Shown here: positions 17,282-23,504 of the stretch, one piece after another | Numbering within the stretch: the first letter of the stretch is position 1 | Layout: each line of letters starts with the position of its first letter | Origin: a virus | Strand: one strand, 5' to 3' | IMG/VR virus record: IMGVR_UViG_3300006124_000013 | Coordinates: 1 to 23,504 of that record | Length of the DNA: 23,504 nucleotides | Notes under the pieces: model-generated | What the model saw: the letters and a program-made list of their open reading frames with translations, nothing else | Told to the model about the DNA's origin: nothing | Database searches by the model: none | Program-made: the position numbers and the translations under genes

Positions 17282-18724
17282 ATGCCTGATTACAACTTTA
17301 TCAATGCGGCAAGCGAAGTAAAGCCTGTACAACAGACTTCAATGGCGGATATGCTGAACTTGGCGCGTGGGGCGCAGGCATACCAGCAGGCGCAGCAGAT
17401 CAATCCGTTGGATGTGCAATCCAAGCAATTAGCGATTCAACAGGCTCAACAAGTTAATCCTTTGGCATTGCGTCAACAAGCAGCGCAAACAGCAGCAGCC
17501 GAAGGTATATTGGCACCAAGCATTGCTAGGGCTGGTTCTGAAGCTGAAACTGCTGCAACCGGCGCTGAATCTGCCAAATTGTCTTTGGCTCAAAAGAAAG
17601 CACAAACAATTTCTAGCGGCTATGTTGGCGCAATTAATGACCCACTTGTTTTGCAAGCAACAAACAGTCCAGATACAGTTGACAAAAATAAACTTGTTGG
17701 ATTTCTTAAAAGTTTTGGTAAAACTCAAGCCAAGGCAGCAGGCGTTCCAGAAGAACAAGCCGACCAATTAATGCAGCCGTACATTGATATTGCTCAAAAC
17801 AATCCTGCTGGTTTGCGCCCTTACTTGATTCAACGTCATATTGCAGGCTTAGATGCTGCTGGTCAAACTGGTACTTACCAAACACAAACCGCTGTCACTC
17901 CTGAAGGACGCACGGTTACAACTACGCCTGGCCTTGGAACTCAAAAGGTTGAATTTGGTCTTGCTGGTGGCGTACAGGCTGGTAAACCACCTGTTACCGG
18001 CGCAGACATGGGAAGTCCGTTTAATCCTAGCGCACCAGCGCCTTTGCCACATCAAGTGCAAGACCCTCGCATTCCACGCATTCCAGACCCTACTGAAGCT
18101 GCTGATACAACCGCTGGCGTTCAACTTCGTCAAGGCTTGCTAAGTCACTTGAACAACACGGCAGAAGCTAATCGCAACTTGCAAGAAAGTTTCTCGGCTG
18201 TTACTAAACTTGACCCTGGCGCATGGTATTCGTCGGGCGCAGTAGGTAATGCGGTTCGTGTATTGAAAAACTTGGTCGGTAGTTCTGATTACCAACAATT
18301 GTCTAAAGACTTGGCTAACGTCCAACTTTCGCAATTGCAAGCCCAAGGTGGGTCAATGCAGACCGACGCTGCCAAAGCATTGCAAGCCCGTGCATCCGGC
18401 TCTGAGACTTACAACCCCGATGTTTTGCTAAACATTCTTAAACGTACACAAGCAAAACAGACAGAGATGCAGCTACAAGCGCCAGCACTTCAATTGTTCT
18501 CGCAAAAGTTTGGTGATGCAAATGCTGCTAAATTCCAACAAGAATGGTCTAAAAATGCTGATTCCAAAGTGTTTGAGGCAATGAACATAGATAAATATGT
18601 TACAGACCCTGTTGAAAAGAAAAAACAGATTAATGAATTGCTTGGCAACGACCCCAAGGCTCGCGCTCTATTTGCAACTAAGTACGATAACATCAACAAA
18701 CTAATTCAAAATGGGAGTTTGTAA
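17282..18724 (+). CDS. Second ejection-type internal virion protein, gp20-like by position
   Basis: The 480-residue protein is Gln/Ala-rich at the N-terminus (GAQAYQQAQQINPLDVQSKQ and similar, residues ~30-70) and largely helical, with a Pro-rich linker at ~240-270 and a charged helical end. No transmembrane segment or enzyme motif is seen. Its length is near P22 gp20 (471), and it is second in a run of three such genes, so I infer an ejection protein; the sequence itself does not prove it. It uses the same 15-base leader as the gp10-like gene and abuts the next gene with no gap. Confidence 0.65.
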   Translation: MPDYNFINAASEVKPVQQTSMADMLNLARGAQAYQQAQQINPLDVQSKQLAIQQAQQVNPLALRQQAAQTAAAEGILAPSIARAGSEAETAATGAESAKLSLAQKKAQTISSGYVGAINDPLVLQATNSPDTVDKNKLVGFLKSFGKTQAKAAGVPEEQADQLMQPYIDIAQNNPAGLRPYLIQRHIAGLDAAGQTGTYQTQTAVTPEGRTVTTTPGLGTQKVEFGLAGGVQAGKPPVTGADMGSPFNPSAPAPLPHQVQDPRIPRIPDPTEAADTTAGVQLRQGLLSHLNNTAEANRNLQESFSAVTKLDPGAWYSSGAVGNAVRVLKNLVGSSDYQQLSKDLANVQLSQLQAQGGSMQTDAAKALQARASGSETYNPDVLLNILKRTQAKQTEMQLQAPALQLFSQKFGDANAAKFQQEWSKNADSKVFEAMNIDKYVTDPVEKKKQINELLGNDPKARALFATKYDNINKLIQNGSL

Positions 18725-21190
18725 ATGGATGATCTTCGCGCTCTAATTGCTGGAGACCAACCGGCTACTCCTGTTGCATCATCCGTACCTGCTGCGCCAA
18801 AGCGTAATAAAGAACCTACAGCGCAAGAAATGTATGGTGTAAAAGACCTGCAAGATTCTTTGTCACAGATTCAAGCAACTTTGCCTGATTTGGTTCCTGG
18901 CTCACCATCTCACAAACGTGCATTGGCTGACATTCAAAGCATTCAATCGGAATTGCAACGCCATGCAACGGCTGCACCTCAATCTGCTCCACAAGCAACG
19001 CAACAATCTTCTAGCAACCCTCTGCGTGATTTGATTGCAGGTTCGTCCGCACCTACGCCAAACTTGTCTGATATTGGAACCGTTACACCTCAAGGACATC
19101 TAACACCACAGCAAATGGAAGCGCAGGTTAAGCCTGCACAGCCCGGCTTAGTTACTCAAGCACTTCAACGTGCATTGCAAGTAAGACAACGTGCGCCAGC
19201 AGAAATTGCTTCCGCGCTTGATGTGGTTGGCAATCTTCCTTCTCAAGTTGCTGGAACTGTTGGCTATGGCGCTGGTCGTTTGTTTGGCTTGAACCCTCAA
19301 GAAGCTACCGCTGCTGCTGCGCCTGTGTCTCAAGCCTTGGCTAACCCTACCGGACGTTTGATGGGTGTTACTGACCAACCAGGCTACCAAAGTTCTTTGC
19401 CTGCAATGGCGCAACAAGCAATTGGAGGCGCTGTTCAAAAAGGTGCAGAGGCTGTTGGGCAACGCACCGGAATTAACCCAACGGACATTGAGCAAGGGGT
19501 AACGGCTGCAATGATGGCTGCTCCTATGCTTAAAGCCCCGTTAGGACGCGCTGGTACGGCTATTAAAGCTGCTTTGCCTGAGTACACGTTTGCTGAGCCT
19601 AAAACGGCTGCTGTGGCGGCTCCTACTGAAACCGTTGGGCTTGGAAGTGCCGGTGCTGCCGCATCTAAAACAGACCCTTATGCGGGTCAAATAACTGGAG
19701 AAGAATCCGCAAGAGGCGGTCAATTCCCGCAAATTAAACTTTCTAAAATTTCTCAAGATGTGCCCAAATCAGAACAAGCAGTAAGGGCGCAAATTGCAAA
19801 TGAAATTCTTGGAGATAGTGGACAAATTCGGCCTGGTGTTGTTACGGGTAATGAAAACACGTTACGCAATGAATACACATTAGCAAAAATGCCAGACGCC
19901 ACACCGGAAGGTCAAGTTTACAAACAACAAATTGCAAACGAACAAAATGCGTTGTCTAACTATGCTCAAGAACGTGTAAAAGCAACTGGGGCAGACCCAT
20001 CATTGATTGATGATGAACAACGTGGACGCGCAGTTAATGACGTGTTTTATGGAAATTATCCTGATGACCCAGTTCCAACAAGTATTACCGGATATTTTCA
20101 AAGAGCAAAAGAACAAATTTATCAATCAGCAAAAGACAGATTTGGAAACAACGCGATTCAAACATCTAATGTTGATAACTTGCTAAACAATCCTCAATGG
20201 ACTGCCGGTCTTGAAATTAAAGGAAATCAAGGAGTAGCTTCTTCGGCTCAAAAATTCCTTAATCTTGCTAAAAATGTTGGATTTGAAGACGCAAATGGTG
20301 TTATGCAACCTGCTGGCTCTGTATCTGCTTACGATGCAGTAAGAAAGGCATTAAATAGCGAATGGTCGCCTCAAAATTCTAGAGCAATTGCGGCTGTAAA
20401 CAGTGCTATTGATAAAGACATTGCAAGTGCGGCAGACCCATCACTTTACAAACTTGGCGATAACATTCACAAGTTGGAAAAAACAATTTTTGAATCAAAA
20501 GGAATTGCAGATATTTTTGGGCCACAAGATAAAAATGGCGTAACTTTGTCTAGCACTCCAGTAGAAAAAGTATTGCCAAAATTAAACAATTTGCCTATTG
20601 AGCAATGGCGTCACATTAACGATACATTAAATCAATTTGCAAGTGGAAGTTTGCGTGATGCACCAGAAGGAATGCCTTCAATCCCGCCTGAATTGCAAAA
20701 TGCCGCTTCTGCTGCTCAAAAAGAAATAGCAGGCGCATTAGCGCGTAAAGTGTATGAATCGGGCGCTTCTAAAATTGGCACATGGAATCAGAACTCTGTT
20801 AATTCCACACTTAATTCAACAATTGGTCAAAAAATACTTCAAACATTTCCACAAGATGAAGTTGCAAAATTTCACACATTAAATCGTGGTGGTTATTTGA
20901 TGCCTGGCGTACATTCGTATGAAGGTGCAGCGTTACAACAAAAACGTGTTGGCAATTTGGCAGGAACTCTTGCAGAAAAAGGACTTACCGCTGGTGGCGC
21001 AGGTTTGGGCGGTGCATTGTTTGGGCCTCCAGGCGCTGCCGCAGGTGCTGGAATTGGTCAACAAGTAGGTGGTAAAGTTGCTGGTGCATTGGAACAACGC
21101 GCGTTATCTAAGAGAGCTACTAAAGCTGTTGAAGAAATGCAAAAAGCAGCAGCACTTAATAAAACTTCTTTAAAAGACATTGGCAAATAA
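18725..21190 (+). CDS. Third, largest ejection-type internal virion protein, gp16-like by position
   Basis: The 821-residue protein starts on the base after the previous stop. Its N-terminal ~300 residues are Pro/Ala/Gln-rich, with repeated openings like LRALIAGD and LRDLIAGSS. The middle (~350-700) is helical and Asn/Lys/Gln-rich. Near the C-terminus, residues ~753-788 form a glycine-zipper-like hydrophobic stretch (GGAGLGGALFGPPGAAAGAG...), a candidate for membrane insertion. It has no clear lytic transglycosylase motif. In P22 the third ejection protein gp16 (609 residues) acts in the inner membrane. The bases from ~19700 to ~20990 are more AT-rich, with many AAA, GAA and AAT codons, unlike the gene's first third. 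The function is inferred from order, size and the zipper. Confidence 0.65.
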   Translation: MDDLRALIAGDQPATPVASSVPAAPKRNKEPTAQEMYGVKDLQDSLSQIQATLPDLVPGSPSHKRALADIQSIQSELQRHATAAPQSAPQATQQSSSNPLRDLIAGSSAPTPNLSDIGTVTPQGHLTPQQMEAQVKPAQPGLVTQALQRALQVRQRAPAEIASALDVVGNLPSQVAGTVGYGAGRLFGLNPQEATAAAAPVSQALANPTGRLMGVTDQPGYQSSLPAMAQQAIGGAVQKGAEAVGQRTGINPTDIEQGVTAAMMAAPMLKAPLGRAGTAIKAALPEYTFAEPKTAAVAAPTETVGLGSAGAAASKTDPYAGQITGEESARGGQFPQIKLSKISQDVPKSEQAVRAQIANEILGDSGQIRPGVVTGNENTLRNEYTLAKMPDATPEGQVYKQQIANEQNALSNYAQERVKATGADPSLIDDEQRGRAVNDVFYGNYPDDPVPTSITGYFQRAKEQIYQSAKDRFGNNAIQTSNVDNLLNNPQWTAGLEIKGNQGVASSAQKFLNLAKNVGFEDANGVMQPAGSVSAYDAVRKALNSEWSPQNSRAIAAVNSAIDKDIASAADPSLYKLGDNIHKLEKTIFESKGIADIFGPQDKNGVTLSSTPVEKVLPKLNNLPIEQWRHINDTLNQFASGSLRDAPEGMPSIPPELQNAASAAQKEIAGALARKVYESGASKIGTWNQNSVNSTLNSTIGQKILQTFPQDEVAKFHTLNRGGYLMPGVHSYEGAALQQKRVGNLAGTLAEKGLTAGGAGLGGALFGPPGAAAGAGIGQQVGGKVAGALEQRALSKRATKAVEEMQKAAALNKTSLKDIGK

Positions 21191-21192
21191 TC

Positions 21193-21426
21193 ATGGAAAT
21201 GCAACAAATCATTGATCTTGGCCTTGGCGCTGTAATGGCTGTTATCGGCTGGTTTGCGCGTGAACTGTGGTCTGCTGTCAAGGAATTGAAATCTGACTTG
21301 TCTAAGCTGCGTGAAGACCTACCCAAAGACTACGTTGCAAGGGACGACTATCGTCAAGACATACGCGAACTCAAAGAAATCATGAACAAGATTTTTGACC
21401 GGCTAGACAACAAACAAGACAAATGA
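21193..21426 (+). CDS. Small membrane-anchored coiled-coil protein
   Basis: The 77-residue protein has one N-terminal membrane segment (residues ~5-24, IIDLGLGAVMAVIGWFA) followed by a charged helical region with heptad character (residues 25-42 and 52-74). This resembles small phage proteins variously called holin-like or lysis accessory; I cannot say which. Two ATGs at 21193 and 21199 are possible starts and neither has a clear ribosome site, so coupling to the gene upstream, two bases away, is likely. It opens the lysis block. Confidence 0.7.
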   Translation: MEMQQIIDLGLGAVMAVIGWFARELWSAVKELKSDLSKLREDLPKDYVARDDYRQDIRELKEIMNKIFDRLDNKQDK

Positions 21427-21435
21427 CTGCCAAAT

Positions 21436-21576
21436 GTGCCCAAGTTTGTACTCCTATTTGCACTCACATTGGCACCAGCTAGTGCAGAAAAGAAGTACGA
21501 ATGTGTGCGCTGGCGGTGGTACGGTGACTTTTACGAACGCAAGGTCTATTGCATTGAATGGCGTGAGAAAAAATGA
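21436..21576 (+). CDS. 46-residue exported protein with GTG start
   Basis: This gene is short and easily missed. From GTG 21436 it encodes a signal peptide (MPKFVLLFALTLAPASA) with an Ala-x-Ala cleavage site after residue 17, then a mature 29-residue peptide EKKYECVRWRWYGDFYERKV followed by YCIEWREKK, with two cysteines that could pair in the periplasm. The motif YECVRW.W.GD.Y.RKV.C.EWR recurs, as I recall, in small phage proteins next to lysis genes. An in-frame stop at 21424 limits the start. A second frame is also open from ATG 21434, but its product has no signal peptide or recognisable pattern. It ends in an ATGA overlap with the next gene. There is no lipobox, so it is not an obvious Rz1-type spanin. 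Confidence 0.72.
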   Translation: MPKFVLLFALTLAPASAEKKYECVRWRWYGDFYERKVYCIEWREKK

Positions 21577-22052
21577 TTGACCCGATAACCGCCTTTGCTA
21601 CCGCCCAAGCCGCCATTAAGGGGGTGCAGGCTGCCATCAAAATGGGCAAGGACTTGCAGGGCATTAGCGGCGATTTAATGAAGTTCTTTGAGGCCAAGGA
21701 CGTAGTAGCCAAGGCAGCGGCAGAACCTAAAAAGGGCTTCGGTAAGTCAGACACGGCGCAGGCGTTTGAGACGGTGATGCACGCCAAACAACTTCAAGAC
21801 GCTGAGAACGAACTTAAACAAATGTTGATCTGGTCAGGCCAAGCGGACGTATGGCAAGCCATCATGCTAGAGCGCAACAAGATTGTCCAAAAACGCAAGT
21901 CAGAGGAGATAGCGATGGAAAAAGCCAAAGCCAAGAAAAAACAAGAAATTAGCGAGGCTATTGAAATGGTTCTTGCTATTGCTGCCGGTGCTTTGCTGAT
22001 TACCTTGCTTGCATGGGGAACGATGGAATACGCAGACTTTATGAGGAAGTAA
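21573..22052 (+). CDS. Lysis-block protein with C-terminal membrane segment
   Basis: The 159-residue protein begins MIDPITAFATAQAAIKGVQAAI and ends with a single membrane segment (residues ~130-149) and a short tail. A basic/acidic helical stretch (about residues 95-130) precedes the membrane span. The DPITAFATAQAAI start and DAE.ELK.ML..SG..DVW..M..ERN.IVQ.RK middle match a phage hypothetical family I recall, of unknown function. It overlaps the small exported protein gene by ATGA and lies one base before the holin. A role in lysis or in holding an envelope protein is plausible from position. Confidence 0.75.
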   Translation: MIDPITAFATAQAAIKGVQAAIKMGKDLQGISGDLMKFFEAKDVVAKAAAEPKKGFGKSDTAQAFETVMHAKQLQDAENELKQMLIWSGQADVWQAIMLERNKIVQKRKSEEIAMEKAKAKKKQEISEAIEMVLAIAAGALLITLLAWGTMEYADFMRK

Positions 22053-22053
22053 C

Positions 22054-22548
22054 ATGGATTGGCTCGCACAAATCGCACCGACTATCGCTACGGCATTGGG
22101 TGGCCCACTTGCAGGCATGGCGGTCTCCGCTGTCAGTAAGGCTATTGGCTGCACACCGGAAGAAGTGCAAAACGTCATCAGCAATAACAAACTTGACGCA
22201 ACCCAAGTAGCCGCGCTCCAGCAAGCCGAACTGGAACTCAAGAAGCAAGCGCAAGCCATGAACTTGGACTTTGCAAAGCTGGCAAACGATGACCGTAAGT
22301 CTGCGCGTGATATGCAGGCAACAACGCGATCTATTATCCCGCCTGTTTTAGCGTTAGTAGTCACGATTGGATTTTTTGGAATTCTCATTGGTCTAATGAC
22401 CAAAACCTTTGCTACGTCTGATGCGTTAATGATGATGCTAGGAAGCCTTGGAACCGCATGGACTGGGATAATTTCCTTTTTCTTTGGTAGCAGCGCATCT
22501 AGCCAAGCTAAAGATCAACTTCTCCACCAATCAACACCTACGCAATGA
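22054..22548 (+). CDS. Holin, three-TM superfamily (GTA holin type)
   Basis: The 164-residue protein is expected to permeabilise the inner membrane so the endolysin reaches the cell wall. Two strong membrane segments are visible (residues ~94-115 and ~124-146), with a weaker hydrophobic N-terminal stretch (~5-28). The middle motif NDDRKSARDMQ and the end FFGSSASSQAKDQLL are typical of the Holin_3TM / GTA-holin family. GAGGAAG lies before the ATG at 22054. It overlaps the endolysin gene by ATGA, the usual holin-endolysin pairing. Confidence 0.87.
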   Translation: MDWLAQIAPTIATALGGPLAGMAVSAVSKAIGCTPEEVQNVISNNKLDATQVAALQQAELELKKQAQAMNLDFAKLANDDRKSARDMQATTRSIIPPVLALVVTIGFFGILIGLMTKTFATSDALMMMLGSLGTAWTGIISFFFGSSASSQAKDQLLHQSTPTQ

Positions 22549-23054
22549 ACTCAAACTTTGAAGCCTCACTAGCCCACGTCCTTCAATCGGAAGGCGGTTT
22601 TGTTGACAATCCGGCAGACCCTGGCGGCATGACTAACCTCGGCTGCACCAAAGCGGTGTGGGAAGAATTCGTAGGCCATCCAGTATCTGAAGCAGATATG
22701 CGAGCGTTAACGCCTGATGATGTTGCGCCTCTCTATAAGCGTAAGTATTGGGACAAGGTGTCCGGCGATGACCTTCCCGCAGGTCTTGACTACGCTGTGT
22801 TTGATGCTGCAATTAATAGTGGCCCTGGACGCGCTGCAAAGTGGCTACAAGAGGCCGTAGGCGTTACCGCTGATGGTTCTATCGGAAAAGGTACGTTAGC
22901 GGCTGTGGCGGCTTTTGACGTACAAGAACTGATTAAAGCGTACAACGATAAACGCCTCGGCTTCTTGCAAAGCCTGCCTACGTTTGGGACGTTTGGGAAA
23001 GGCTGGACAACTCGCGTTGCTTCCGTGCAAGCTGCCGCTTCGGAACTGGCTTAG
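22545..23054 (+). CDS. Endolysin, GH108 N-acetylmuramidase
   Basis: The 169-residue enzyme should cut the glycan chains of peptidoglycan to release progeny. The N-terminal motif SEGGFVDNPADPGGMTNLGCT (residues 15-35) is the signature of glycoside hydrolase family 108, with E16 as the catalytic acid. The second half (KYWDKVSGDDLPAGLDYAVFDAAINSGPGRAAKWLQEAVG and DG.IG..TL) fits the peptidoglycan-binding domain usual in this family. Full length and intact. A Cys at position 34 replaces the more usual Val or Ile. No signal peptide, so export relies on the holin. Its last 77 bases overlap a convergent minus-strand gene. Confidence 0.92.
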   Translation: MNSNFEASLAHVLQSEGGFVDNPADPGGMTNLGCTKAVWEEFVGHPVSEADMRALTPDDVAPLYKRKYWDKVSGDDLPAGLDYAVFDAAINSGPGRAAKWLQEAVGVTADGSIGKGTLAAVAAFDVQELIKAYNDKRLGFLQSLPTFGTFGKGWTTRVASVQAAASELA

Positions 23055-23271
23055 GGCAATTCTCCGGTGGCACGACCACACACCACACGGCGCTAAGATA
23101 CTTTTGCGTCCCACGGGTCTGCCATCGATCAATGTAAGCGTCCGGCATCGTTCTAAGTAAGCTGCTAATTGTGTGTTGCGGTGCTTTGGTTATTGCGTGA
23201 ATCTGTGCGGCTGTTAAACCATCAGGGTATTGGCGCAAGGCTGCGCGGACTACTTTGTTATAGCTATACAT
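22978..23271 (-). CDS. Small winged-helix-like protein, convergent to the lysis block
   Basis: The 97-residue protein is transcribed towards the late genes. Residues ~5-47 (NKVVRAALRQYPDGLTAAQI..ITKAPQHTISSLLRTMPDAYIDRW) have the look of a small helix-turn-helix, winged-helix type domain, and YIDRWQ....YL.AVWCVVVPPENCPKP is a pattern I recall from small phage proteins of unknown function. A regulatory or DNA-binding role is inference. Its ATG shares a base with the stop of the upstream minus gene (TAATG), so they form a small leftward operon. The C-terminal ~25 residues are encoded opposite the endolysin's 3' end and look low in conservation. Confidence 0.78.
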   Translation of the reverse strand: MYSYNKVVRAALRQYPDGLTAAQIHAITKAPQHTISSLLRTMPDAYIDRWQTRGTQKYLSAVWCVVVPPENCPKPVPKRQLARKQRELSSLSQTSQT

Positions 23272-23489
23272 TAACTGTTCTTATCCTTAAGTTTGGCTTC
23301 AATTGATCGAACCAGTCCGTAAAATCCTGCGCCTGATGTAAGCGTTGAATGTTTTGGTTCGTAACCGTAGTACATCATTGCTTTTTGTACTGCTGGTTGA
23401 AAATCCTCATCCGTCAGCCCTACCCACGGGCGCTGGGGTGAAGTGGTGTAGAGAGGTTTGCAAGATTCATTTATTTTTGTGCAAATCAT
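23271..23489 (-). CDS. Hypothetical protein (72 aa), minus strand
   Basis: The 72-residue protein starts at ATG 23489 (reading leftward), with AAAGGAAAC before it, a good ribosome site that supports the start. It has PWVGLTDEDFQPAVQKAM (residues ~21-38) and a helical C-terminus (YGLVRSIEAKLKDKN). The PW.GLT.EE/D phrase is frequent in small early phage proteins, but I cannot assign a function. It is upstream in the same minus-strand operon as the winged-helix-like gene and probably belongs to an early or middle gene block beyond the window. Confidence 0.72.
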   Translation of the reverse strand: MICTKINESCKPLYTTSPQRPWVGLTDEDFQPAVQKAMMYYGYEPKHSTLTSGAGFYGLVRSIEAKLKDKNS

Positions 23490-23504
23490 GTTTCCTTTAT
23501 TGTC

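Follow-up and report, generated by a model that had tools for sequence, protein, structure and literature searches.

Results

The DNA analysed here, referred to as the window, is the complete IMG/VR record IMGVR_UViG_3300006124_000013, of 23,504 bases; L194, a contig of a different metagenome, matches it at 99.98% identity across positions 17838-23504. The other genes of the window are those of a tailed phage, with terminase large subunit, portal, scaffold, major head protein, tail spike and fibre proteins, head closure Hc3 and a DNA-ejection protein, after which comes the lysis block. The gene under study, small46, is present once. An initial annotation had located it in the lysis block, between two membrane protein genes, and both parts of this description hold: a GH108 endolysin is encoded from 22545 (Pfam PF05838, E 2.3e-26), the product of 21193-21426 has a hydrophobic segment close to its N-terminus (by eye), and that of 21573-22052 has one close to its C-terminus, where the best 19-residue hydropathy window starts at residue 129. 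The features of the region are the following.

21193..21426, + strand: tm77, N-terminal membrane segment and coiled-coil-like tail; matches phrog_462 'lipoprotein' (2.3e-13) and, weakly, phrog_739 'Rz-like spanin' (6e-4)
21434..21580, + strand: alternative frame of 48 aa, rejected as a gene; its ATG is absent at that place in six relatives
21436..21576, + strand: small46, 46-residue protein, GTG start and TGA stop; identified by third-position-biased divergence and family search
21436..21486, + strand: signal-like hydrophobic leader of small46, residues 1-17, putative cleavage between ASA and E; read from the sequence, unconserved in the family
21496..21522, + strand: predicted hairpin strand 1, residues 21-29, with C23-x-x-W26 (AlphaFold2, pLDDT about 96)
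21541..21567, + strand: predicted hairpin strand 2, residues 36-44, with C39-x-x-W42 (AlphaFold2, pLDDT about 92-95)
21573..22052, + strand: p159, helical, one C-terminal membrane segment (hydropathy, model); ATGA overlap with small46; phrog_32327
22054..22548, + strand: p164, putative holin, two C-terminal membrane segments by eye; phrog_1544, function unassigned; a look-alike in MW202701 carries the annotation 'holin'
22545..23054, + strand: endolysin, glycosyl hydrolase 108 family (PF05838, 2.3e-26; phrog_315, 4.4e-51)

The small46 frame opens with GTG at 21436, runs for 46 codons and stops at TGA 21574-21576, and its end shares an ATGA with the start of the downstream gene, whose ATG lies at 21573. 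All of this agrees with the initial annotation, as do the two cysteines of the mature part, C23 and C39; the aromatic residues had been undercounted, since the 29 residues past the putative cleavage site have eight (Y, W, W, Y, F, Y, Y, W) and not five. The second frame reported to begin at ATG 21434 is also present and runs to 21580, giving 48 aa.

The coding capacity of small46 was assessed against six divergent, not near-identical, relatives (L039, L092, L107, L115, L136 and L138). Nucleotide differences from the window number 30-36 per relative, of which 21-24 fall in third codon positions; amino-acid differences number just 6-9. Purifying selection in this frame, proposed earlier as a form of support, is borne out by this third-position-biased divergence, and on sequence grounds small46 is a genuine gene. 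Since the six relatives have no ATG where the window has ATG 21434, the GTG frame is the conserved one, and the ATG 21434 frame was rejected as a gene. In the codon aligned to GTG 21436 the same six relatives carry CTG; the exact start codon is not conserved.

A search of phage DNA for the YEC-type motif, short ORFs included, had been suggested, and it recovered the family in viral contigs: the DNA pattern YEC-V-x-W-x-W matched 115 stretches, and two more DNA patterns gave at least 119 and at least 120. With a core HMM at E <= 1e-5, at least 336 loci encoding the small46 family were obtained, a set that takes in the window itself (L001), contigs present twice (L004/L194 and L039/L132) and two loci that entered through p159 (L032 and L045); the HMM matched 218 of the 219 loci with id L203 or higher, the exception being L269. 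The 336 loci listed comprise 266 distinct sequences, and the hairpin and C-terminal part holds exactly two cysteines in 257 of these, four in eight (L131 and L152 being four-Cys members) and one in a single case. The conserved part of the protein is the C-terminal half, with the core [YF]-[ER]-C-V-[RK]-W-x-W ... V-x-C-[LI]-[EKQ]-W-[RK], and the N-terminus is not conserved. Among 142 distinct cores the Cys-Cys spacing is 16 in 89, 14 in 49, 19 in three and 37 in one, two of the 336 ORFs having been missed by the core regular expression and left out of these counts. The invariance of residues in 142/142 cores is partly built in, given that the collection patterns demand C, W and W and two of them also V, C and W; members independent of the patterns (L032, L041 and L045, reached via p159, and L002, also found without the DNA patterns) retain both cysteines, W26, V37 and W42.

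No significant profile match to small46 was found in Pfam, PHROG, NCBIfam or PADLOC, and the best E-values of 61 members against Pfam and PHROGs were 0.033 and 0.036. Among 50,697 phage records, a single weak match was obtained. In bacterial genomes five stretches matched, none of which was confirmed, and a further pattern had 0 matches; both patterns were strict, and divergent prophage copies could escape them. Four BFVD proteins from uncultured Caudovirales, all named 'Uncharacterized protein' (A0A6J7XSH2, A0A6J5LR83, A0A6J7WXV1 and A0A6J5SHR9), gave the best structural matches among viral proteins, with Foldseek E 1.1e-3 to 3.6e-2, probability 1.00 and 48-79% identity across 26-31 aligned columns, and evidently belong to the family. 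A literature search found no paper on it, and small46 represents a conserved family of phage microproteins that is apparently undescribed.

An AlphaFold2 model of small46, built with 61 family members, predicts a β-hairpin with strands 21-29 and 36-44 (block pLDDT about 92-96); residues 1-20 are of low confidence (block means 56 and 65). The core consists of two C-x-x-W strands and a joining loop that varies in length. If the strand limits define the pairing (29/36 and 21/44), C23 would lie opposite W42 and W26 opposite C39, and on this DSSP strand-limit pairing, itself predicted, the two C-x-x-W motifs would be pseudo-symmetric, with the cysteines on opposite faces. The spacings of 14 and 16 differ by two, which would fit a hairpin loop that changes while the strand faces are kept. 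Among solved structures, the best Foldseek E was 7.4, and none of 14 VIA-aligned chains had a Z of 2 or more.

The gene directly downstream, p159, is modelled as an all-helical protein whose long last helix ends in the membrane segment (mean pLDDT 73). All 30 of the p159 members scanned match phrog_32327, a family of unassigned function, and the best VIA matches of the model, at Z 10.8 and below, are common helical bundles that carry no function. The position of small46 relative to p159 was recorded in the 336 loci listed. It abuts or slightly overlaps the p159 start in 306 of them: in 282 the gap from its end to p159 is -10 to 60 nt (158 of them at -4, the ATGA overlap), and in a further 24 it overlaps p159 by 13-67 nt. 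Elsewhere p159 lies within 600 nt upstream of small46 (5/336), 61-400 nt downstream (2/336) or more than 400 nt downstream (5/336); one locus has an odd overlap (-233), one is an in-frame fusion, and in 16 the stretch covered includes no p159, eight of these having at most 700 nt of downstream sequence. The fusion (L090:4551-5211) has one extra A in an A7 run in comparison with L191 and was set aside as probably a sequencing error. Because the partners go down to about 25-35% identity with the window p159, the adjacency of the two genes has been kept over deep divergence. The synteny that had been expected with holin and endolysin genes thus stands for p159 (306/336 loci), but not for holin and endolysin in general.

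The reverse relation was also considered. Of 462 matches to p159, 80 relatives were listed, and small46 was found in the flanks (up to 3 kb) of five (L004, L032, L039, L041 and L045) and was absent from the flanks of the other 75; the dependence is one-sided, and the link from p159 to small46 is weak. In one phage (L201:3828-4004; MW202701.1, UOF80720.1) a 58-residue two-Cys protein occupies the same ATGA-coupled slot before p159. It is apparently unrelated to small46, which suggests convergent small partners of p159.

The leader of the window copy, MPKFVLLFALTLAPASA, is signal-like, and periplasmic export of this copy is plausible from its sequence. By simple rules, the 336 loci listed fall into 177 with hydrophobic or signal-like leaders, 142 with Pro-rich leaders (for example MDALPPPPPVAQAPAPV), 12 others and five truncated. 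A net basic start is seen in only 46 of 123 distinct hydrophobic leaders, and some of these leaders have about 11 residues (e.g., MISFLLAVSIE). For this count a leader was taken to open at the earliest ATG, or failing that a GTG or TTG, lying within 9-34 codons, a rule that mis-sets some starts, such as those of the window's close relatives with CTG. The signal peptide of the initial annotation is therefore plausible for the window but not family-wide, 142 Pro-rich and 12 other leaders of 336 being non-hydrophobic, and to judge from these classes export is not what the family conserves. Along the p159 tree the leader type switches at least 11 times, and for this reason the compartment in which small46 and p159 would meet is uncertain. 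An association of the exported leader with a two-Cys tail on p159 (120/163 with hydrophobic against 60/140 with Pro-rich leaders) was dropped after a test on the p159 tree, in which 6-7 independent pairs gave a non-significant sign test.

The lysis modules around other family members were then compared with that of the window. The order in L181 is Rz-like spanin, lipobox spanin-like protein, GH19-type endolysin, small46, p159, coiled-coil protein, holin-like protein and an exported two-Cys peptide; L150 has an equivalent set, but with p159 preceding small46, and the modules of L120 and L146 resemble these two by eye. In Limnohabitans phage DC31 the row is p159, putative holin, Rz-like spanin and endolysin, and small46 is absent. 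A lipobox scan ([LVI][ASTVI][GAS]C) of the window found no sense-strand gene and one antisense chance ORF; the same scan recovered all five lipobox genes in four control loci.

Several exported proteins were observed near small46. In T4-like relatives the holin is followed by a second small exported peptide, also with two cysteines (KKVC...KKECKxxKVHKKLEGTK type), and the L181 copy has a weak match to the Cor superinfection-exclusion family (phrog_1119, E 0.0059):

L181:7030-7197: second two-Cys peptide
L150:6281-6502: second two-Cys peptide
L146:3592-3801: second two-Cys peptide
L120:10775-10984: second two-Cys peptide

Upstream of small46, T4-like relatives also have a gene for a large exported protein that carries a Cys-rich motif such as GNPGYCGPN (L163:5822-8044, L177:10412-12028 and L195:6570-8324). 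Just downstream of the small46-p159 pair of L089 lies the gene (L089:3312-3917) for a 201-residue protein with a signal peptide and a porin-like C-terminus.

At 16 loci, homologues of tm77 and p159 stand side by side without small46 between them. Stops or indels in the frame, with the neighbours kept, had been named as evidence against the gene, and these 16 loci partly have that pattern. In the two of them that were covered over a longer stretch, L092 and L136 (where the copy is on contig L003), small46 is intact and lies about 10 kb off, among short tail-region genes; there it is relocated rather than decayed. L107, L115 and L138 have small46 in the same tail-region place, with no p159 in the stretch covered. 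The relocated copies all lie upstream of a P22-gp4-like adaptor gene:

L092:13099-13347: relocated small46
L107:751-918: relocated small46
L115:5157-5321: relocated small46
L136:3765-4010: relocated small46
L138:4555-4722: relocated small46

small46 is in these cases a tiny gene that shifts place among closely related genomes.

Discussion

Our preferred reading, to which we assign a probability of about 0.42, is that small46 serves p159 at the membrane, as an accessory or a regulator, in a late lysis (envelope) module. It would be produced along with p159, the helical, tail-anchored membrane protein of the gene that follows; in the window its hydrophobic leader would deliver the hairpin to the inner membrane or across it, and there the hairpin may dock onto p159 or the membrane via its Trp-rich surface and modulate when or how the envelope fails. 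Members with a Pro-rich leader would reach p159 from the cytoplasm. Counting for this proposal are: (i) a gene under purifying selection, (ii) a large family, (iii) the Trp/Cys core, with the models of the hairpin and of p159, (iv) the adjacency to p159 and (v) the lysis context; counting against it are the many p159 genes without small46, the relocated copies and the variable leader type.

By analogy, the nearest functional counterpart of the window copy is RI of phage T4, described in PMC8385771 as a small antiholin whose signal peptide is cleavable and which binds the holin T in the periplasm. An exported small46 hairpin that likewise bound the holin machinery, at a part of it in the periplasm or the membrane, would delay lysis, and the position in the lysis block, the signal-like leader of the window copy and the translational coupling to a membrane protein are all compatible with such a role. 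RI, as presented there, is a small phage protein like small46, and the two may also share a signal peptide (plausible in the window copy) and action beside the holin at lysis. The differences are that no sequence relation between the two was found, that the predicted fold of small46 is a bare β-hairpin, and that export is not general, many members having no export leader. Its constant neighbour, moreover, is p159, neither a homologue of holin T nor recognisable as a holin, and the putative holin of the window exposes, by eye, a loop of only about eight residues outside. An antiholin of the RI type is possible but doubtful.

We consider it unlikely that small46 acts as a disruptin, that is, as a cationic Trp-rich hairpin that disrupts the outer membrane at lysis. 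Disruptins are, as described in PMC12819732, short antimicrobial lysis peptides with a helical archetype, and small46 would resemble the φKT disruptin described there in being a short amphipathic phage lysis peptide. The predicted hairpin, the two cysteines and the richness in Trp would suit such an activity, and so would the net charge of hairpin plus tail, which is +3 in the window and on average +4.1 in 94 distinct members with hydrophobic leaders. The window also has no sense-strand o-spanin-like lipobox gene, in a scan that was positive in control loci; however, it may be a fragment with the spanin outside it, and tm77 is weakly Rz-like. The two-stranded core itself has a mean charge of only about +1, and members with Pro-rich leaders average +2.0 and lack an export signal. 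Moreover, the φKT peptide is, according to the same source, a helix that stands in for spanins, whereas small46 is a predicted hairpin and co-occurs at other loci with spanins, including complete spanin pairs. The known natural families of β-hairpin antimicrobial peptides come, as described in PMC13001179, from animals and plants and are held closed by intramolecular disulfides; small46 is like those of the arenicin type in its predicted form of a single cationic hairpin with Cys and aromatic residues, but the arenicin-type peptides are disulfide-closed and the modelled strand limits of small46 would put its cysteines on opposite faces. Neither T4 RI, nor the disruptins, nor the β-hairpin antimicrobial peptides are sequence relatives of small46.

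Superinfection exclusion, or another modification of the envelope by a periplasmic peptide, would make use of the export-like leader of the window copy, and the second two-Cys peptide of the T4-like relatives weakly matches the Cor family (phrog_1119, E 0.0059). The peptide behind that match is a different protein from small46, none of whose members matches any family, and we hold this explanation to be quite improbable. Still poorer are the prospects of a minor virion or tail-associated protein: sister phages do carry small46 among short tail-region genes, upstream of the P22-gp4-like adaptor, but most small46 loci adjoin p159, and a hydrophobic leader would be odd for such a protein.

An o-spanin (Rz1-like lipoprotein) could be suspected from the small size, the vicinity of lysis genes and the Pro-rich leader of 142/336 members. 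This identity was rejected and is barely credible: small46 has no lipobox, K-Y-E preceding C23, and L150, L181 and L120 carry spanin-like lipobox genes apart from it. Because the L181 and L150 modules, with Rz-like spanin matches besides small46, already contain spanins, endolysin and holin, small46 is not their spanin. A chance open reading frame, which the shortness and the GTG start might suggest, is given practically no weight and was rejected on the third-position-biased divergence, the at least 336 family loci and the conserved adjacency to p159.

A bolder form of the proposal, in which small46 is a β-hairpin lysis peptide that, together with tail-anchored p159 at the envelope, destabilises the membrane at lysis, is in our estimation distinctly unlikely; if true, small46 would stand beside the helical disruptins as their β-hairpin counterpart and would be a membrane-active β-hairpin peptide from viruses. 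The gene is below the usual ORF size cut-off, yet its family is found in hundreds of environmental phage contigs, and it is nearly absent from the 50,697 phage records and unmatched in the four profile libraries. The tight pairing of small46 with p159, in some phages beside complete sets of spanin, endolysin and holin, points to an undescribed step or control of lysis, and it bears on how aquatic phages open their hosts.
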